Source of the DNA: Natrialba sp. SSL1
Lineage (GTDB): Archaea > Halobacteriota > Halobacteria > Halobacteriales > Natrialbaceae
NCBI RefSeq assembly: GCF_001861355.1
Contig: NZ_MASN01000035.1
Location: forward strand, 186,001-250,000
DNA length: 64,000 bases
Direction of reading: 5' to 3'
The notes under the pieces are model-generated. The model was not told where the DNA came from and made no database searches. It saw only the letters and a program-made list of their open reading frames with translations. Below are positions 5,536-63,002 of this stretch, piece after piece. The position numbers were made by a program, and so were the translations under genes. Numbering within the stretch: position 1 is the first letter of the stretch; each line of letters begins with the position of its first letter.

Positions 5536-5608
5536 GGCCCGTATTGGGCCGGAAAACGAACAATCAACCCTTATGTGCATGCGGTTTAAACTCCCGAACG
5601 TTACGGAG
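5536..5608 (+). promoter_or_regulatory. Leader/promoter region of the nuo operon
   Basis: The 245-bp gap after purE holds GGCCC-GTATT-GGGCC (5536-5550), a perfect 5-bp inverted repeat, and just before it a GGAGAG...CTCTCC pair. T-rich and A-rich stretches follow before the nuoA ATG at 5609. This must contain the promoter of the 10.5-kb complex I operon, but a single TATA box cannot be singled out with confidence. Confidence 0.3.
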
Positions 5609-6022
5609 ATGAACGATTGGATAGCGATCGGGGCGCTTGCACTCGTGGGAGTACTGATACCGCTCGGTATGATGGCGGTATCGTACCTTCTGCGCCCGAG
5701 TGTACCCGAAACGAGCAAACGTGCCACCTACGAGAGTGGCGAGATCCCGACCGGCGACACGCGCGTCCGGTTCAACATCCAGTACTACATGGTTGCGCTT
5801 CTGTTCCTCATCTTCGATATCGAAACCGTCCTCCTGTTTCCGTGGGCGGTCGTGTACCTGGATGCCGTCGAATCGGACGCCGTTTCGCTGCTCGAGATCC
5901 TCGGCCCAATGGTGCTTTTCGTCACGATCCTCCTCGTCGGACTCGCGTGGGCGTGGCGAAAGGGTGCGGTCCAGTGGGCACAGACACCTCGTCAGGTAGA
6001 AACCGAGCATAACCGACCATGA
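5609..6022 (+). CDS. nuoA: Complex I subunit A (NuoA-like)
   Basis: This 137-aa membrane subunit begins MNDWIAIGALALVG and has three predicted transmembrane helices. The conserved YESGEIPTG loop and FLIFDIETVLLFPW helix are typical of NuoA. It helps form the quinone chamber and the junction of the peripheral and membrane arms. It is the first gene of the operon and overlaps nuoB by ATGA (6019-6022). The start is set at the hydrophobic N-terminus; upstream in-frame ATGs would add an unlikely extension. Confidence 0.93.
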   Translation: MNDWIAIGALALVGVLIPLGMMAVSYLLRPSVPETSKRATYESGEIPTGDTRVRFNIQYYMVALLFLIFDIETVLLFPWAVVYLDAVESDAVSLLEILGPMVLFVTILLVGLAWAWRKGAVQWAQTPRQVETEHNRP

Positions 6023-6726
6023 GTAGCGACGAACCACGACAAACGATCTACGACAGCACAGCGCCGTCGACGGACACCCGCGACGCCCGAATCGGCGAGG
6101 GTGTCGACGACCGCTTCAACTCCAAGCTTCGCGAGGCGTTCGGCGCGTCGCCGTTCATCCTCACGAAGTTCGACGAGTTCATGAACTGGGTTCGCGGGAA
6201 CTCGATGTTCATGCTCCAGTTCGGGATCGCCTGCTGCAGCATCGAGATGATGCACACGTACGCGATCAAACACGACCTGGACCGCTTCGGGGCTGGCGTC
6301 CCCCGCGCTTCGCCGCGACAAGCCGACGTGATGATCGTCCCCGGAACGATCGTCTCCAAGTTCGGCCCGCGCATGAAGCGCGTCTACGACCAGATGCCCG
6401 AACCGAAGTTCGTCGTCGGCATGGGCTCCTGTACGATCTCCGGCGGCCCGTTCCAGGAGGGGTACAACGTCGTCAAGGGTGCCGAAGAGATCATCCCCAT
6501 CGACATTCACGTCCCCGGTTGCCCACCGCGACCGGAGGCGCTGCTCTACGGAGTCCTCAAACTCCAGGAGCGAATCAAGAACGGCGAGTCCTCGGCCGTC
6601 GTCGTCAAACCGTACGAACTCGAGGAGTTCGGCGACCTCCAGAAGGACGAACTCGTACAGAAACTCGCAAGCGAGATCGACGAGGACGACCTCGTCATGC
6701 GCTATAACTGGGCTGATTCACCATGA
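6019..6726 (+). CDS. nuoB: Complex I subunit B (NuoB-like, N2 cluster)
   Basis: NuoB binds the terminal [4Fe-4S] cluster N2 next to the quinone site. In this 235-aa protein the tandem cysteines are in GIACCSIEM, the third in MGSCTISGG and the fourth in VPGCPPRPEAL. A charged N-terminal extension of about 50 residues precedes the core, a common haloarchaeal feature. The gene overlaps nuoA and nuoCD by four bases each (ATGA), so translation is probably coupled. Confidence 0.96.
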   Translation: MSSDEPRQTIYDSTAPSTDTRDARIGEGVDDRFNSKLREAFGASPFILTKFDEFMNWVRGNSMFMLQFGIACCSIEMMHTYAIKHDLDRFGAGVPRASPRQADVMIVPGTIVSKFGPRMKRVYDQMPEPKFVVGMGSCTISGGPFQEGYNVVKGAEEIIPIDIHVPGCPPRPEALLYGVLKLQERIKNGESSAVVVKPYELEEFGDLQKDELVQKLASEIDEDDLVMRYNWADSP

Positions 6727-8399
6727 GCACGGGAACCGAAACAGAGCCCGAAGCAGAGCTCGCAGAGCCAGGGTCCGAAACCAACGAGGCTGCACTCGAG
6801 TCCCTGCTCGGTGAGCGCGCCATCGCGCGCGACGATCACCTGAACGCGCCGGGCTTCGTTATCAACCCGAACGACGTTCAGGACGTGCTCTCGGATCTGC
6901 GCGACGAGGCCGGTTACGACCACCTCTCGTGTGTTACCGCCCAGCAGTACGAGGATCGATACGAGTCGATCTACCACATGAAGAAGTTCGCTGACCCGAC
7001 CGACGAAGTCAGCATCGTCGTCCCGACGACGGTCGACGATCCGGTGAGCCAGAGCGCCGAGCCGGTGTTCCGGACGGCCGACTGGCACGAGCGAGAGGCG
7101 TACGATCTGGTCGGTGTCGAGTACGAGGATCACCCTGATCTGCGACGGATTCTCCTGCCGGAAACGTGGCAGGGCCACCCCCTGTCGAAGGACTACGATC
7201 AGGAGAAGCCACAGCTCGTCACGCTGACGGAGCACCAGAACCCGATTCAGCCGGACCATCACGACGCCGAGTCGGATACGATGTTCCTGAACATCGGGCC
7301 ACACCACCCGGCGACCCACGGCGTGCTCCACGTCAAGACGGTGTTAGACGGCGAGACGGTCGCCGACGTCGAGCCGGACATCGGCTACCTCCACCGCTGC
7401 GAGGAGCAGATGTGCGAGCAGGGCACCTACCGTCACCAGATCATGCCCTACCCGGACCGCTGGGACTACGTCTCGGCGGGCCTGCTCAACGAGTGGGCGT
7501 ACGCGCGTGTGATCGAGGATCTGGCAGACATCGAGGTTCCCGAGTACGCACAGATCATCCGAACGATGGGTGCGGAACTGTGCCGAATTGCCTCGCACAT
7601 GCTCGCGCTCGGAACGTTCGCACTCGACGTCTACGGCGAGTTCACCGCGACGTTCATGTACACGTTCCGCGACCGGGAGGTCATCCAGGACATTCTGGAA
7701 GATCTGACGGGCCAGCGGATGATGTTCAACTACTTCCGCGTCGGCGGTGTCGCCTGGGATCTGCCCGAACCGCGCGAGGAGTTCTTCGAGCAGACCCGCG
7801 AGTTCCTCAACGAACTCCCGGCGAAGGTCGGCGAGTACAACGACCTCATCACGGGCAACGAAATCTTCCAGACCCGCTGTATCGACACCGGTGTGCTGGA
7901 GCCCGAGGTCGCCAAAGATTACGGCTGTACCGGACCCGTCGCACGTGGCTCCGGCGTCGACTACGACCTGCGCCGTGACGATCCATACGGCTACTACGAA
8001 CAGCTCGACTGGGACGTCATCACGCGCGATGGTGCTGACAACTACGCGCGCGTCCTCTGCCGAATGGAGGAGGTCGAGGAATCCGCGAAGATCATCGAGC
8101 AGTGTCTCGATCTTCTCGAGGACTGGCCCGAAGACGAACGGGACGTACAGGCGAACGTCCCGCGCACGCTGAAGCCGGATGCTGGCACTGAGATCTACCG
8201 CGCCGTCGAGGGAGCGAAGGGTGAACTCGGCATCTACATCCGCTCGGACGGCTCGGACAAGCCCGGTCGATTCAAGATCCGGAGTCCGTGCTTCTCGAAC
8301 CTACAAGCACTCGAGGAGATGTCCGAAGGGGAGTACATTCCTGACCTGATCGCCTCGCTGGGCAGCTTGGACATCGTTCTCGGAGAGGTGGATCGATGA
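6723..8399 (+). CDS. nuoCD: Fused complex I subunits C and D (NuoCD-like)
   Basis: The 558-aa protein fuses the 30-kDa NuoC domain (about residues 20-170, ending in the REAYDLVGVEYEDHPDLRRI signature) and the 49-kDa NuoD domain (about 190-558). The NuoD half starts FLNIGPHHPATHGVLH, whose histidines line the quinone pocket, and ends LASLGSLDIVLGEVDR. No hydrogenase-type Cys pairs are present, as expected for complex I. It overlaps nuoB and nuoH by four bases. Fusion of C and D also occurs in some bacteria. Confidence 0.96.
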   Translation: MSTGTETEPEAELAEPGSETNEAALESLLGERAIARDDHLNAPGFVINPNDVQDVLSDLRDEAGYDHLSCVTAQQYEDRYESIYHMKKFADPTDEVSIVVPTTVDDPVSQSAEPVFRTADWHEREAYDLVGVEYEDHPDLRRILLPETWQGHPLSKDYDQEKPQLVTLTEHQNPIQPDHHDAESDTMFLNIGPHHPATHGVLHVKTVLDGETVADVEPDIGYLHRCEEQMCEQGTYRHQIMPYPDRWDYVSAGLLNEWAYARVIEDLADIEVPEYAQIIRTMGAELCRIASHMLALGTFALDVYGEFTATFMYTFRDREVIQDILEDLTGQRMMFNYFRVGGVAWDLPEPREEFFEQTREFLNELPAKVGEYNDLITGNEIFQTRCIDTGVLEPEVAKDYGCTGPVARGSGVDYDLRRDDPYGYYEQLDWDVITRDGADNYARVLCRMEEVEESAKIIEQCLDLLEDWPEDERDVQANVPRTLKPDAGTEIYRAVEGAKGELGIYIRSDGSDKPGRFKIRSPCFSNLQALEEMSEGEYIPDLIASLGSLDIVLGEVDR

Positions 8400-55272: not shown

Positions 55273-56286
55273 TTAGGCGCGCTCCGGTTCAGGGTCCGAG
55301 CCCGTTTCAGGTTCTGACTCCGACGGCGTCGTGTCGCGCGTTCCAGCGTCCGCGTTCGGTTCGGAACCGGAGGAACCGGATGAACCGGAGGACGAGCCCG
55401 GATTCGGATCCGCATCCGGTTTCGTGTCCGTGCCCGTGCCCGAACCCGTACTTCTACTCGTACTCGAGTCCCGGAGCGTTGCGATCCACGCCGTGACCGA
55501 CCAGCGGCCGACCAGCACGCCCGCGAGGACGACACAGATGTAGGCGAGGACGATGCCTGCGGCCACGTCGATCGCCCAGTGGATACCCAGGTACATCGTC
55601 GAAATCGCGACCGAGACGCCGAGACCGGTCGCGAGGAAGAACCACTTCGGATAGATCGCCCGGGTTCGGAACGCGAGGAACGTCACGGTTGCCGCAAGCG
55701 AGGTGTGCAGCGACGGGAAGACGTTCGTGTTCCGGTTGACCTGTCGCGTGAGGTGCTGATACTGGGGATACGTATCGTACAGCAGCGCGTCCACCAGTTC
55801 CGGCATCATGTTCCGCGGCCCGTAGGCGACGATGAAAACGTAGATCCCGAGTCCAAGCACGTAATTCAGCGTGTACGCCGTCAGGAGCTCGCGCAGCGGG
55901 CGCGTATTCGAGAGCGCGAAGTAGGCGATGACGGGGAAGACGAGCAAGAAGACGTAGCCGTAGATGTAGATGAACGAGAAGTACGCCGTGATCGCCGGCG
56001 CTTCGAACGACTGCAGCCAGAGGATGAACTCACCCTCGACGTCGTAGATCGGCCACGTGAGATTCCAGTGAATCATCCAGGAGACGTCGGGACCGTACTG
56101 TCTCGCGACGCTGTTGAACAGCAACACGGCAGCGAGGAGCGCCGTCACCGGTGCCGCCGCCCGAACGCGAGCGCGCCACTCGAGTCGCGTATCTCGCAGA
56201 CGGTAGCGACCGACGAAGACGGCAATCGAGACGAGCACCATGAGCGTGACCACGACGGTCAACTGGAGGAGGACTTGCGTTAGCAT
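55273..56286 (-). CDS. PAP2/AUR1-like membrane phosphatase (cassette 1)
   Basis: The 337-aa protein has about six to seven transmembrane helices and the PAP2_3 (inositol-phosphorylceramide synthase-like) catalytic parts: AYGPRNMMPE, VFPSLHTSLAAT (catalytic His) and YLGIHWAIDVAAGI (second His and Asp). It would remove or transfer a lipid phosphate head group at the membrane. The last 75 residues are an acidic Ser/Gly/Pro/Thr tract with GTGTDTKPDADPNPG. The ATG shares one base with the upstream solute-binding gene stop, so both are translated together. The partner PAP2 of cassette 2 is its paralogue. Confidence 0.9.
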   Translation of the reverse strand: MLTQVLLQLTVVVTLMVLVSIAVFVGRYRLRDTRLEWRARVRAAAPVTALLAAVLLFNSVARQYGPDVSWMIHWNLTWPIYDVEGEFILWLQSFEAPAITAYFSFIYIYGYVFLLVFPVIAYFALSNTRPLRELLTAYTLNYVLGLGIYVFIVAYGPRNMMPELVDALLYDTYPQYQHLTRQVNRNTNVFPSLHTSLAATVTFLAFRTRAIYPKWFFLATGLGVSVAISTMYLGIHWAIDVAAGIVLAYICVVLAGVLVGRWSVTAWIATLRDSSTSRSTGSGTGTDTKPDADPNPGSSSGSSGSSGSEPNADAGTRDTTPSESEPETGSDPEPERA

Positions 56287-58232
56287 CAGTGTCTCACCCG
56301 GAGGTTCCCGTCATCGTCGTAGCGCAGTCCCGCCTCCTCGAACGCGTCGCGTGCTGCCGCCACGTCGAGGTCGCCGTCAGTTCCGAGAAACGGCGTCTCG
56401 GGATCGGTCCCGTTCCAGGCGAGCGAGTCGGGGACCCACTCCTCGACGACCGGCGTCGCGATCGGCTCTGCGTAGCCGTGAAACACCTCTTCGACCAGGT
56501 GTTCCTTGTCGAGCAACTGGGCGACGACCCGCCTGAATCGCGGATTGGAGAACGGTGCCTTCCGCGCGTTGAACCCGACGTGGTAGAACGACCACGAGGG
56601 GGACTCGAGTACCGTCGTTTCCGGAATCTCCTCGTCGTCTTCGAACACGTCGTCGACGACGTAGGACTCGAGCGTCGAGAGCGTCACGTCGGCGCTGTCG
56701 CTCTCGACGAGTTCGATCGCAGACGTACTCCGCGGGTCGATCTGGATACGCAGGCGCTCGCTCGTCGGTTTGGGGAGGTCGACGCCGTCGCGGCGCGTGA
56801 AGTGCTCGTCGAAGCGCGCGAGGGTAACGTGCTCGCGGTCGGTTCGGTCCTCGAACTGGTAGGGACCGCTGCCGATTGGGGGCACGTTGTCGGTGACGAG
56901 CGCCTCGGTCGTCCCTTCGGCAACCGTGACGCCGCGGAGGCTCGCCTGGTCCGTGCGCTCGTCCCAGATGTGTTTCGGGAGGATCGGCACCGCCAGTGCA
57001 CGCTCGGCGACCGGCTGGCTCGTTGCAACGGTGAACTCGAGTTCGGTCTCGTTCACCTCGGTTACGTCGTCGATTGCGGCGACGTGGCCGCGGTAGTGGG
57101 GGGCCGGTGCGGAAAAGCGTCGACTGCCGCGGGTCGTGTCCGCGAGGAACTCGTAGGTGAAGGCGACATCCTCGGCAGTGAGCGAGGTTCCGTCGTGGAA
57201 CGCGCAGTCGTCCCGGAGAGTGACGGAGAGCGTCTCGTCGTCGGTCCACTCCCAGTCGGCGGCGAGCCAGGGCGTGAGATCAGGCGTTGCGTCCGGTTCA
57301 GCGGGGGTGTCGGTGTCGGCATCCGACTCCTCATCCCCATCCCCAACACCAACCTCGGCCCCGGCCCCACCGCCGTTAGCCGGCCACTGTGTTACCGCGA
57401 GCGGATCGTACAGCAGCCCGACGACAATATTTCGCTCGCGGTACTCCGCCGACAGCGGGTTCAGGTTCTGTGACGGTCGCGCATCCGTATTCACCGTCCG
57501 CAGTTCCGCCGCCGCGTCCTCGGACTGTGGCTCGAGGCCGAGATAGCCAAAGCGCGTCGCCGGATGTCCGTCTCCCCAGCCCTCGAACCGATCCGAGCGC
57601 GCGAGTCTGATCTCCGTCGGCCGACAGATCGGGATGAACGGCTGCTCGCGCGCAACCGACTCGAGTGTCGCTGTGATCGCGTCTTCGCGGTCGGTGTTCT
57701 CGTTGGTATCGTCGCCGTCTCCGTTTCCAGTCCCGCCCGCGGCGACTCGCTGTGCATCCAGTCGATCGTCGAGAGCCAGATTCGTCAGTCCGAAGGGGTT
57801 CTGCCAGCCGGCTTCCTCCGCGAAGCGCGAGTGGAGCAGTTCATAGAGGAAGTCCGGCGTCGTGTCGCCAGGGTGGGGGCCGACGTAGAGATCGAAGTCG
57901 TGGTTGACGAGGATCGCGCGCCGAAACTCCTCGTGTGAGAGCATATCGATCGCGATGTCGACGCCGACGGACTCGAGTGCGGAGCCGACGGCGCGGGCGA
58001 GCTGGATGCTTTCCCGGTCGCCGTCGGCGGGCACGGTGGAGATGGTCAGCGAGAGCGGTTCGACCTCGTCGCGGTTGACGATGCTCCGTACTTCGCGGAT
58101 ACAGCCGCTCGTCGAGACGGTGAGGCCGGCTGTCGCGGCGAGCATCGACCGGCGACTGAGACCGCTGCGAGCGGCGTCGTCGCTGGCGTGTGTGTGGTGT
58201 TCCGGGCTGGCTGACGGGGCGGGGTCGCTCAT
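56286..58232 (-). CDS. Tat-lipoprotein, SBP_bac_5-type solute-binding protein with permuted segments (cassette 1)
   Basis: The 648-aa protein has a twin-arginine signal (SRRSMLAATAGL, SRR at 26-28) with lipobox Cys 44 (STSGC). Residues about 60-225 match the normally C-terminal part of peptide/oligopeptide-binding proteins (ESIQLARAVGSALESVGVDI, FDLYVGPHPGDTTPDFLYEL, PFIPICRPTEIRLARSDRF). Residues about 243-648 match the normal N-terminal and middle parts (LNPLSAEYRERNIVVGLLYD, WLAADWEWTDDETL, FHDGTSLTAEDVAFTYEFL, PIGSGPYQFE) and stop at AGLRYDDDGNL. No permease or ATPase gene is near. Start at ATG 58232, after TTATATC at 58261-58268; GTG 58247 is an alternative. Confidence 0.87.
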   Translation of the reverse strand: MSDPAPSASPEHHTHASDDAARSGLSRRSMLAATAGLTVSTSGCIREVRSIVNRDEVEPLSLTISTVPADGDRESIQLARAVGSALESVGVDIAIDMLSHEEFRRAILVNHDFDLYVGPHPGDTTPDFLYELLHSRFAEEAGWQNPFGLTNLALDDRLDAQRVAAGGTGNGDGDDTNENTDREDAITATLESVAREQPFIPICRPTEIRLARSDRFEGWGDGHPATRFGYLGLEPQSEDAAAELRTVNTDARPSQNLNPLSAEYRERNIVVGLLYDPLAVTQWPANGGGAGAEVGVGDGDEESDADTDTPAEPDATPDLTPWLAADWEWTDDETLSVTLRDDCAFHDGTSLTAEDVAFTYEFLADTTRGSRRFSAPAPHYRGHVAAIDDVTEVNETELEFTVATSQPVAERALAVPILPKHIWDERTDQASLRGVTVAEGTTEALVTDNVPPIGSGPYQFEDRTDREHVTLARFDEHFTRRDGVDLPKPTSERLRIQIDPRSTSAIELVESDSADVTLSTLESYVVDDVFEDDEEIPETTVLESPSWSFYHVGFNARKAPFSNPRFRRVVAQLLDKEHLVEEVFHGYAEPIATPVVEEWVPDSLAWNGTDPETPFLGTDGDLDVAAARDAFEEAGLRYDDDGNLRVRH

Positions 58233-58260
58233 TAGGTCCGTTGCCACAGTTCGCCCGTGG

Positions 58261-58268
58261 TGATATAA
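58261..58268 (-). promoter_or_regulatory. Likely TATA box of SBP cassette 1
   Basis: TTATATCA on the minus strand lies 29-36 bases before the ATG at 58232 in the 93-bp gap between cassettes. This would give a transcript with a very short leader and lets cassette 1 be expressed separately. Confidence 0.5.
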
Positions 58269-58325
58269 CAGTATTGCGCTGCAGCGTCGCCCCGCGGAAT
58301 GTGTGGTGTCGACGCCGACGTCTCC

Positions 58326-59213
58326 TCAGACGCCGTCCTCTCCCTGCTCGCGGTCCGGTTCCGGTCCGGATGCAGTCTCGCCTCGTCCGGCGGCTCGCAC
58401 GCGCTCAACGGCAGTAGACAGCGACCAGCGGCCGACGAGATGCTTTGCGAGGACGACGCAGACGGCGGCGAGGACGAGGCCGGCGACCACGTCGATCGCC
58501 CAGTGGATACCGAGGTACATCGTCGAGATGATGACGCTCGTCGCGAGACCGACAGCGACAGGGAACCACGCCCGGTACTGGTCACGGGTCATGTAGGCGA
58601 AGATGGCGACGGTCGCCGACAGCGAGGTGTGCAGCGATGGGAAGACGTTCCGGTTCTGGTTGACCTCCGTTGTAAGGTGAATATACTCCGGATTCGCGTA
58701 GTAGAGGTGTGTCGCGTCCATCCCCTCGATCATAACGTTTCGCGGCCCGTAGGCGATCACGAGCAGGTAGAAGGCGAGCCCGATCACGTAGTTGAGTGAG
58801 TACGCCGTCAGCAGTTGGCGGAGGACGACGGTGTTCGAGAGCGTGACGTAGGCGACGATCGGAAATATCAGCACGAACGCGTAGACGTAGACGTACGCAA
58901 CCGAGAAGAACGTCGTCACTTCGGGTGTCGCGATCGATCGAAAGAGCAGGACGAAGTCGCCCTCGAGCGAGTAGAACACCTCGGTCATGTGTACTCCGTA
59001 CGCCTGCGAGATCTCGTACCCGTCCTGGCGCATGATCCGGTTGAGACCAAGAATCGCGGCCAGGAGGGCGAACGCGGGAGCGCTCTGGCGAAGCCGCGGT
59101 CGCCACTCGGTGCGAAGCGAGGCGAGTCGTTCGCGGCCGACAAAGACAGCAAGCGAGAGCACAAGCGCGAGCGCAACGACGAACGCGACTTGTGTGAGTA
59201 CTTGTACGAGCAT
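58326..59213 (-). CDS. PAP2/AUR1-like membrane phosphatase (cassette 2)
   Basis: The 295-aa paralogue of the cassette-1 enzyme has the same helices and motifs: AYGPRNVMIEGMD, NVFPSLHTSLSAT and YLGIHWAIDVVAGLV. Start MLVQVLTQVAF at 59213; a longer reading has no homology. The tail is short (GETASGPEPDREQ), unlike copy 1. It lies 11 bases after the stop of the second solute-binding gene. The conserved pair suggests function with the lipoprotein at the outer membrane surface. Confidence 0.9.
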   Translation of the reverse strand: MLVQVLTQVAFVVALALVLSLAVFVGRERLASLRTEWRPRLRQSAPAFALLAAILGLNRIMRQDGYEISQAYGVHMTEVFYSLEGDFVLLFRSIATPEVTTFFSVAYVYVYAFVLIFPIVAYVTLSNTVVLRQLLTAYSLNYVIGLAFYLLVIAYGPRNVMIEGMDATHLYYANPEYIHLTTEVNQNRNVFPSLHTSLSATVAIFAYMTRDQYRAWFPVAVGLATSVIISTMYLGIHWAIDVVAGLVLAAVCVVLAKHLVGRWSLSTAVERVRAAGRGETASGPEPDREQGEDGV

Positions 59214-59224
59214 GTGGAGTCGTG

Positions 59225-61201
59225 TTACCAGACCAGTGCGCCGTCGTCGTACTCGAAGTTCGATGCGAACAGCTCCCGCGCAGCGTCGACGTTGAGCTCG
59301 CCGTCCTCGCCCTCGAACGTCGTCACCAATTCGCCGTCGTCCCAGGCGAGCGAGTCGGGGACCCACTCCTCGGCGACCGGCGTCGCGACGGGCCGTGCGC
59401 TGTCCTCGGCGGCAAACACTTCCTCGGCGACCCACTGTTTGTCGACCAGTTGTGAGACCGCACGACGGAAGTGCGTGTTCCCACACGGCATGCTGCGAGT
59501 GTTGAATCCGATATGGTAGAACGACCACGACGGAGACTCGACGAACGAAACGGCATCGTCGTCGATCGTCGACTCGAGTGCGTACGTATCGAGTTGGGTT
59601 GTCGTAATATCGGCATCGCCGTTTGCGACCCGTTCGACGGACGAACTCGTTCCCGGATCGACCTCGAAGTGGAGTTCGTCGGCGGTTGGCGCTGGCAGGT
59701 CGTGATCGTCGTCCCGGAGCGTGAAGTGATCCTCAAAGCGCGTGAGCGTAACGGAGGTGCCTGCGTCGTGGGAGTCGTACTTGTAGGGGCCGCTGCCGGT
59801 CGGCGGCGCGTGGTTGCTCCTCACGATGCTCCAGTCACCCTGTGTCGGCGACAAGTCATCGTCTGCGGACTCGACACTGCTCTCGAGATGGGTGATCCAG
59901 GGCGAGTCCGGGCCGGCTGGAAGGATCGGCACCGTCAGCGCGCGCTCGGCGACGGCTCGGTCCGTCGAGAACGAGATCGTGAATCGGTACTCGTCCTCGA
60001 CGGTGACGGAGTCGACGGCGCTCACGTGGCCCTGATACCGTGGTGCAGGCGAGGCGCTCGCGGCGCGTCCGTACGTCGTGTCCGCGAGGAAGCGGTAGGT
60101 GAACGCAACGTCCTCGGCGGTGAGGGGGATCCCACTCTCGCTACCGTTGGCATCGCCACCGTCTGCGTCAGTGCCGTCGTCGGTGTGGTCGTGGAACGTA
60201 CAGTCCTCGCGGATGTCGACGGTCATGGTTCGGTTCTGGGCGTCCCACTCCCAGTCGGTCGCGAGCCACGGCTCGATCGAGACGTTTGCCGCGTCGATTA
60301 CTTCTTCGCCCGCTCGTGTCTCCTCATCTGTCGCTTCCGCCTCGTCGGGAACGGACCACGTTGGAACGGCGAGCGAGTCGTACAGCAGGTCGACGATAAC
60401 GCGTTGCTCGTGTGTCGTCGGAGAAAGCGGGTTGAAGGTCTGGGCCAGGCGCTGGTCCGTGACGAGTGCGTGAAGCTGTTCGGTGTCGGACGACGCGTCG
60501 GACTCGAGTCCGAGGTAGCCGTTGCCGGTCGTGAGGTAGTTCTCGTCCCAGCCGTCGAATCGGTCCGTTCGAACGGCTCGGTACTCGTTCGACACGCAGA
60601 TCGGCTCGAACGGCTTTTCCTGTGCGATCCCCTCGAGCAGTGTTGCGATGGTCCGTTCGCGGTCAGCACCGGTCTCCGTGCGCTGGCGCTCGAGCAACCG
60701 ATCGATTGTCAGCGTGTCGGTGAAGCCGAACGGGTTCTGCCACCCCTGGTCGTATTCGTACGTCGAGTGCAGCGTCTCGTAGAGAAAGTCCGGATCGAAG
60801 TCCGCAGGGTGGCGGCCAACGTAGAGATCGAAGTCGTGATCGATCAGGATCGCCTCCAGAAACTCGGATTCGGAGCGAGTGCTGATCGTCGCGTCGATGC
60901 CGACTGCCTCGAGGTTTGCCTCGAGATGGCGTGTGATTTCGGCAGTCTCTCTGTCCCCGTCGGCAGCGGGGAGCGAAAGGATAGAGAGCGAGACTTGTTC
61001 GGCGGCGTCGGAGTCGACGACGCTCTGGACGCGGTCGATACAGCCGCTCGCAGCGACCGAGAGACCGGTCGCACTGGCGGCGAGGAGCGACCGGCGGCTG
61101 TAGCCGGTGGTTGCGTCGGCGTCGGTGTTGACATTGGCGTCAGTGTTGACGTTGGCGTCGGGGCTAGTGTTGGTGTCAACGTCGTTGGACGGCAAACTCA
61201 T
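59225..61201 (-). CDS. Tat-lipoprotein, SBP_bac_5-type solute-binding protein with permuted segments (cassette 2)
   Basis: The 658-aa protein mirrors the cassette-1 SBP. A Tat signal (YSRRSLLAASAT) and lipobox Cys 54 (AASGC) follow an N-terminal NVNTDANVNTDAD tract. The normally C-terminal segment comes first (ETAEITRHLEANLEAVGIDA, FDLYVGRHPADFDPDFLYET, KPFEPICVSNEYRAVRTDRF), then the normal start (FNPLSPTTHEQRVIVDLLYD, WLATDWEWDAQNRTMTVDI, FHD, LTAEDVAFTYRFLADT) to the hinge near DGALVW. Start ATG 61201; GTG 61210 possible. PAP2 copy 2 follows after 11 bases. Confidence 0.87.
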   Translation of the reverse strand: MSLPSNDVDTNTSPDANVNTDANVNTDADATTGYSRRSLLAASATGLSVAASGCIDRVQSVVDSDAAEQVSLSILSLPAADGDRETAEITRHLEANLEAVGIDATISTRSESEFLEAILIDHDFDLYVGRHPADFDPDFLYETLHSTYEYDQGWQNPFGFTDTLTIDRLLERQRTETGADRERTIATLLEGIAQEKPFEPICVSNEYRAVRTDRFDGWDENYLTTGNGYLGLESDASSDTEQLHALVTDQRLAQTFNPLSPTTHEQRVIVDLLYDSLAVPTWSVPDEAEATDEETRAGEEVIDAANVSIEPWLATDWEWDAQNRTMTVDIREDCTFHDHTDDGTDADGGDANGSESGIPLTAEDVAFTYRFLADTTYGRAASASPAPRYQGHVSAVDSVTVEDEYRFTISFSTDRAVAERALTVPILPAGPDSPWITHLESSVESADDDLSPTQGDWSIVRSNHAPPTGSGPYKYDSHDAGTSVTLTRFEDHFTLRDDDHDLPAPTADELHFEVDPGTSSSVERVANGDADITTTQLDTYALESTIDDDAVSFVESPSWSFYHIGFNTRSMPCGNTHFRRAVSQLVDKQWVAEEVFAAEDSARPVATPVAEEWVPDSLAWDDGELVTTFEGEDGELNVDAARELFASNFEYDDGALVW

Positions 61202-61746: not shown

Positions 61747-63002
61747 TCAACTGTCGGCGGTTGGCCGATAGCCGTCGTCGTTCAACGTCCCACCATTTAT
61801 ACGCACGTCTACTGGTGCGTCTGCGCTCCCCGACGTGGGCGAGGAACGCAGTCTGTGTTGTCGCTTCCGCATATACCGCAGGCCGACGTTTTTCGCGCCG
61901 TTGTAGTCAGCGTTGATCTCGTACCCGCATTTGAGGCACTGGAACTGCTCGCCGTCGCGGTTATCCTTGTGAGTGAAGCCACAGTCAGTGTGTGAACACC
62001 GCTGGCTCGTGTGATCTGGCTCGACCTGTTCAACCGCGACACCGCAGTCCGGCGCTTTGTACTCAACGTACTCGACAAGACGACGGAACGCCCAGATGTG
62101 ATGCCAGTCAGCGTGAGGCAGTCGCTCACGGATATCGGTCAAGTCCTCGAACACGATCACGTCGCACTCGTGGTCAACTGCTTCGTCAACGATCTCGTTG
62201 GCGACTGTGTGGATATACTGTTTGCGCCATGCTCGTTCTCGCTTTCCAAGCCGAAGCAAGGCGTTGTGAGCGGCTTGTGTCCCACGCTGTTGCATCTCTG
62301 CTCGGCGTTTTTCAAACTCCTGTATCCAGTGGTCGTACTCCTCACCACTCCAGAACGTGCCTGTTGACGCGACGGCAAGGCTATTCACGCCGAGGTCGAT
62401 CCCGAGGACTGTCTGGTGCCCGGTATCGTCCGAACCCTCAATTTCAACAGCTTCACCGTCTGTGCCTATCTTCCGTGTTTTAACGTGGAAGTAGAACTCG
62501 TCGGTGCTTGGTCGTACTGGAGTGTACTCGTCCGAAACTCGTAGTCATCCGCAAGGACGTACTCCTCGTATGGTGTTGGACTGTCTGCTGGGAGTTCAAA
62601 ATCACACTCGATGCGTCCGTTCACCGTCGAGAGTGAGATTTTGTTGCGGTAGAATGTCGCGCTCCGCTTGTCGTAGACCATACTCCAAGAGGTAAACTCT
62701 GGCTTGTTCGTCCGTTTGCCTTTCTTCCAGCGGTCAACACCACTATCGACGGCGTGAACGGCACGCCGGATGGCTTCTTGGACGAGATTCGCTGTCAGGT
62801 CAGTTTCCTCGCGGAGTCGGTTATACAAAGCATCTCTGGCTTTCACGTTCGAGGTGACGCAGTCTTCGTAGTCGGTGTTGTCCCAGCAGTAGTCACTGGC
62901 CTCGTTCGCGCAGTAGAGGAACTGGTCAGCAGTTTCGTGGAGGTCGTCGTGATACTCGTCGGGAACAACGAGTTTGACCGGCGCAGTTCGTCTGACCTCC
63001 AT
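61747..63002 (-). pseudogene. tnpB: TnpB RNA-guided nuclease, frameshifted
   Basis: The N-terminal part reads MEVRRTAPVKLVVPDEYHDD to about 62511 and the C-terminal part from about 62508 to 61747. The frames join if one base is added near 62510 ([20 protein letters not shown]). All catalytic parts are intact: RuvC Asp in [13 protein letters not shown], Glu in [12 protein letters not shown], Asp in [15 protein letters not shown], and the zinc knuckle [15 protein letters not shown] ... CLKCGY. Full length would be about 418 aa. The break is a single-base deletion, so decay is recent, or the read is wrong. Confidence 0.85.

Follow-up and report, generated by a model that had tools for sequence, protein, structure and literature searches.

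The question raised by this locus is whether two neighbouring solute-binding proteins (SBPs) carry the segments of their fold in reversed order, and if so, how that order arose. The window, which is the whole stretch of 64,000 nucleotides analysed, belongs to a haloarchaeal genome of 4.58 Mb. Its closest named relatives among the loci fetched are Natrialba hulunbeirensis and N. chahannaoensis, at 87–89% identity. Four genes form a block on the minus strand: SBP copy 2 (61210–59225, 661 aa), a PAP2_3 membrane phosphatase as its partner (59213–58326), SBP copy 1 (58247–56286, 653 aa) and a second PAP2_3 phosphatase as partner of copy 1 (56286–55273). The ATG of the first PAP2 gene lies 11 bases past the stop codon of copy 2, and the start of the second overlaps the stop codon of copy 1 by one base (TGATG). 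Against PF14378 (curated cut-off 27) the two partner genes scored 62.9 and 63.8 bits, with E-values of 2.3e-17 for the partner of copy 2 and 4.6e-17 for that of copy 1; they match the catalytic part and carry the PSLH and H-x3-D motifs. For copy 1, the ATG at 58232, five codons in (MSDPAPS), is a likelier start than the GTG at 58247.

Both SBPs carry a twin-arginine motif and, behind it, the cysteine of a lipobox. These lie within YSRRSLLAASATGLSVAASGC in copy 2 (aa ∼38–57; 61040–61099, minus strand) and within SRRSMLAATAGLTVSTSGC in copy 1 (aa ∼31–49; 58101–58157, minus strand), and the RR and GC residues are invariant in 54 relatives. Both proteins meet the motif criterion for Tat lipoproteins and are predicted as such, their processing being inferred.

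The initial annotation had claimed that the SBP_bac_5 motifs stand in reversed order in both proteins and had named a separate match of the two halves to PF00496 as one way to check it. In a Pfam scan, PF00496 matched each SBP in two stretches and in swapped order, with full-protein scores of 168.1 and 146.1 bits (curated cut-off 32.4). The larger stretch is at the C-terminal side, where aa 324–648 of copy 1 match profile positions 2–285 and aa 312–650 of copy 2 match positions 2–275, so that the usual start of the fold comes second. The N-terminal and middle parts of the fold thereby occupy aa ∼245–648 of copy 1 (56304–57515, minus strand) and aa ∼247–655 of copy 2 (59246–60472, minus strand). 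The normally C-terminal segment stands right after the lipobox, as had been proposed, at aa ∼60–240 of copy 1 (57528–58070, minus strand) and aa ∼70–243 of copy 2 (60482–61003, minus strand). Scanned alone, this N-terminal piece gave weak matches at the expected place, to positions 289–362 for copy 1 (E 0.0073) and 292–363 for copy 2 (E 4.7e-4). Both halves therefore match, in the order that the annotation had foreseen.

The smaller piece was also compared with shuffled sequences. Scored with an HMM of normal SBPs from the window's own genome, the relocated tails of copies 1 and 2 scored 14.4 and 9.0 bits, and the maxima of 200 shuffled tails were 2.9 and 6.2 bits, respectively; the real tails exceeded all of them. 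An HMM built only on eight SBPs of normal order from this genome gave the same swapped order. When the order was restored, each protein gave a single continuous match; the score of copy 1 rose from 135.2 to 167.1 bits and that of copy 2 from 95.2 to 110.8 bits. A single-sequence search of the N-terminal piece against the PDB returned nothing significant; only profiles matched. Judged from sequence, both window SBPs are circularly permuted, with homologous segments swapped and joined near the old termini. The window copies and their relatives fail the membership criterion of a normal N-to-C segment order and are thus a permuted variant of the family.

AlphaFold2 without templates gave confident full-length models for copy 1 (pLDDT 85.0, pTM 0.83) and copy 2 (pLDDT 79.1, pTM 0.80), with low confidence only in the signal region and acidic loops. 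Foldseek against the PDB returned cluster C binding proteins (∼425 columns, target TM ∼0.5). Its aligner is sequential and does not handle permutation, so the swapped half cannot be read from the Foldseek result.

The breakpoint was mapped on DppA and AppA with a profile built from nine permuted relatives. On DppA, the C-terminal part of the profile matched residues 3–339 (i-Evalue 1.7e-64) and the N-terminal part matched 344–491 (1.5e-17). On AppA, the matches were to 21–346 (2.3e-64) and 349–501 (2.2e-23), again in swapped order. The two stretches nearly touch each other in both proteins. The window subfamily's own profile also matched AppA with both halves swapped (1.9e-26 and 1.5e-6). Because the stretches end and start there, we place the breakpoint between DppA 339 and 344. 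At this point the profile reaches OppA residue 356; domain III of OppA, which we take to span ∼271–486, includes this residue, so the break lies inside the C-lobe and not at the hinge. The annotation had ended the chain at the hinge; it ends instead in a C-lobe loop, at DppA residue ∼339/344, and apart from this placement its motif assignments were right. The normal N-terminus is on the N-lobe and the breakpoint is inside the C-lobe; from the breakpoint position we infer that the lipid anchor, normally on the N-lobe, would now sit on the C-lobe. The residues R383 and D436 of DppA (precursor numbering), which grip the ligand (PMC12136057), fall within the relocated segment. Conservation of the DppA ligand residues Asp408 and Arg355 was not clear by eye, and for this reason no ligand is proposed.

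We hold, with a probability of about 0.95, that the window SBPs are exported by the Tat route, anchored by a lipid and built on the cluster C (DppA/OppA-type) fold, with a circular permutation of the mature domain. The position of the signal peptide and lipobox would be unchanged, with the segment from DppA ∼344 to the C-terminus now right behind the lipobox, the segment from DppA 1 to ∼339 next, and the chain ending in the C-lobe loop. The two-lobe fold would be kept, with the lipid anchor on the C-lobe beside the segment that holds the two ligand-gripping residues of DppA.

A scan of genome contigs found 173 relatives, from which 77 loci were kept. All 77 come from other haloarchaea and are permuted at the same point. 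At one of them (L092) the tail was below detection at the threshold used, but the alignment with the permuted query extends over the complete protein. Strong matches to the window-family profile were present in 192 of 292 haloarchaeal genomes and in 58 of 76 genera. Relative to orthologues, dN/dS was 0.14–0.21, which indicates purifying selection. A PAP2 phosphatase gene directly follows the SBP gene in 98 of 113 cases, with a 1- or 4-base overlap in 59. The pair is mostly tandem in Natrialbaceae and single elsewhere, and SBPs without a PAP2 partner are mostly second copies in Natrinema. Fourteen such second copies without a detectable PAP2 gene were seen in Natrinema/Haloterrigena (L060, L064–L069, L071–L073, L076, L079–L081), where the first copy has one. 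A second permuted haloarchaeal group, with a member in the window's own genome (L008), mostly stands before a DppB-type permease, i.e. one of the dipeptide-type ABC permeases.

Permuted and normal-order orthologues also occur side by side. In a phylum-wide search with the permease-linked profile, in which the top three candidates per genome were scored, only one match outside Halobacteriales (genome G207) spans the junction among the matches listed; the other listed non-Halobacteriales matches cover the common part only. A follow-up in the family of G207 added three genomes with a permuted protein (G125, G135 and G183). Within one Archaeoglobus-like genus, the protein is permuted in some species and in normal order in others. 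The permuted protein is 86% identical in the core and 88% in the tail to the normal protein of its congeners, and in the DNA of the orthologous genes two blocks are swapped at 79–80% identity. The normal protein contains AGYSEDNKLKLELWW and ends in MIFRYYLIYEV. The permuted protein has its lipobox, then KEEAKKLKIELWW, then MIFRYYLVYSEEQKDTITIGVTDK, and ends in KKAGYSE. Genes of the dppBCDF type adjoin the permuted gene. In the permuted Archaeoglobus-like genomes (L200) the SBP gene and dppBCDF point away from each other. In a neighbouring genus with normal order (L207 and L208) the SBP gene is the first gene and runs in the same direction, and in the normal-order congeners of the permuted genomes the SBP gene had no visible Dpp operon next to it.

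Similar pairs were found in haloarchaea, with the gene permuted within a transporter operon that is otherwise collinear. Downstream of the permuted gene at L210 (genome G010), ∼3.5 kb of DNA is collinear with the normal-order loci L209 and L213 at 76–79% identity. L210 and L213 also have a common upstream block, and the SBP halves are swapped between them. In the group of L022, L035 and L139, both halves are 60–70% identical to normal-order orthologues. No tandem-duplicate remnants were found beside the Archaeoglobus-like or haloarchaeal young permutations, and a duplication-deletion route is therefore neither shown nor excluded.

In a tree of order-restored proteins, the Archaeoglobus-like and young haloarchaeal cases were nested inside normal-order clades. 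Forcing all permuted proteins together lowered the log-likelihood by 1067 (AU p 8e-84), and a single common origin of the permutation is rejected. The permutation arose independently at least three times, with a fourth origin likely. The secure origins are the main haloarchaeal set, the group of L022, L035 and L139, and the Archaeoglobus-like case. The protein of G207 (L144) is likely the fourth, and the L022 group possibly represents two. The main haloarchaeal set, made up of the window family and the permease-linked group, lies on one side of a branch with a support of 84, which is not decisive. With a sample of modest size, these event counts are lower bounds, and several deep forks of the tree are unresolved. 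The breakpoint is nearly identical in all cases (PF00496 ∼275–288 | 288–293). In 31 methanogen-class genomes no split pattern was seen among the matches listed, and the full-length matches were in normal order, as were the best-matching solved structures. Bacteria were sampled only via plasmids; plasmid matches with apparent coverage of most of the query were considered as permuted members and ruled out, all five proteins checked being in normal order.

Could the same distribution come from a single ancient permutation that was later undone several times, back to normal order? Some room for it is left by the size and age of the main haloarchaeal permuted set and by some unresolved forks beside the nested cases. 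The rejection of the constrained tree, the position of the nested cases inside normal-order clades, and the normal order throughout the plasmid, structure and methanogen matches all speak against reversions, and we regard them as improbable. A still poorer prospect is that the N-terminal segment has its origin in another gene and merely resembles the SBP C-terminus by fusion or convergence, as suggested for TpMglB-2 of Treponema pallidum. In the window proteins the segment resembles the SBP C-terminus only weakly, as such an origin would allow, but the identities of both halves to normal-order proteins in the Archaeoglobus-like and L022 groups, together with the continuous alignment of the window family once its order is restored, leave this account very little ground. 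Misassembly, or a broken normal SBP gene misread, is hardly credible at all. The match to copy 1 (L011) does take in two stop codons, though it overran the true gene end. Both reading frames are unbroken over their 653 and 661 aa, and the same order, under purifying selection, recurs in dozens of genera and in closed genomes. The annotation had argued from the two copies alone that this was no local assembly artefact, a conclusion that stands because other species share the arrangement. Repeated permutation of a genuine SBP thus remains our reading, and its repeated origin is well supported, whereas an adaptive reason for the recurrence is not.

What the window copies do is less certain. The PAP2-linked copies may work for a phosphatase of envelope lipids or glycans and not for an ABC permease, an inference from a link that is genetic only; ligand, transport partner and expression data are lacking. 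They could also be ordinary importer SBPs whose permease is encoded at another place in the genome, PAP2 being a mere neighbour. The sister permuted set directly before DppB-type permeases tells us that permuted SBPs can serve importers. At the window SBP loci no permease was detected, and the PAP2 gene keeps its place after the SBP gene across haloarchaea, often with a short overlap, which makes the importer reading unlikely without dismissing it. For the permutation itself, the permuted protein would presumably still open and close on its ligand as a two-lobe trap (no ligand data exist), and the new order may be tolerated or favoured through a changed seating of the tethered protein above the membrane. 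Permuted and normal orthologues stand in similar operons, from which we infer that a permuted SBP can work with the same transporter as its normal counterpart. It is a tentative proposal, for which we would not claim even odds, that permutation recurred at one site since moving the anchor to the C-lobe is useful, that some young pairs serve the same transporter, and that the oldest haloarchaeal case led to a permease-free branch with a PAP2 partner.

The nearest known proteins are DppA, OppA and AppA, to which both segments of the window proteins match across nearly the whole fold and whose DppB-type permease adjoins the sister permuted group. The window proteins differ from them in the swap at DppA 339|344, in the inferred anchor on the other lobe, and in having PAP2 in place of a permease. 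In betaine-binding proteins of a different fold cluster, lobe order is swapped between the OpuAC and ProX types. A naturally permuted binding protein is already known: Tp0684/TpMglB-2, a tethered sugar-binding protein of T. pallidum and Gram-positive relatives, whose authors suggested that membrane tethering may have favoured the permuted form (PMC4990184). That protein has a Type I (cluster B) sugar-binding fold, another breakpoint and low identity in the permuted part, and the passages considered here describe no repeated origin or matched orthologue pairs (PMC4990184). Its type (Type Ic, cluster Bc) was ruled out for the window SBPs, whose sequence and structure matches are to cluster C. 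The recurrence is the surprising part, as natural circular permutation is usually regarded as a rare, ancient one-off and here recurs at one site in one family. We found neither a permuted SBP_bac_5 protein nor repeated permutation of any binding protein in the open literature (subscription papers were mostly not covered), and no description of a strict pairing of PAP2_3 with a solute-binding lipoprotein in the literature. Orthologues of both orders in one genus and in collinear operons are natural matched pairs for testing relocation of the anchor, which makes the tethering idea testable, and they offer ready-made permuted scaffolds. Profile searches and annotation label permuted SBPs as ordinary ABC substrate-binding proteins, with the relocated part below detection.

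Several minor features were observed. A difference of two bases at the new stop codon of L177 (GAGGATAA versus GAATAA) was set aside, being absent in L176 and L178. L035 has a normal-order SBP fragment (5600–6787, plus strand; HMM 52–376 only) near its permuted SBP. The permuted SBP of G207 (L144, 4733–6496, minus strand) has no lipobox; its C-terminal tail, TPGFGVIAVIAGVMAATYLLRRRR, resembles a PGF-CTERM (archaeosortase) anchor, in which case this permuted protein would be tethered by its other end. On plasmids of Haloferax gibbonsii (L152) and Haladaptatus pallidirubidus (L153), phosphoglucosamine mutase, arylsulfotransferase and helix-turn-helix genes lie near the SBP-PAP2 pair; the first two suggest, as a lead only, envelope glycan or lipid chemistry. 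In the window, a decayed IS200/IS605-type TnpB gene (61747–63002, minus strand) lies directly upstream of SBP copy 2. Its C-terminal half contains the PF07282 TNB domain (4e-20), and its N-terminal half is probably in a separate ORF.
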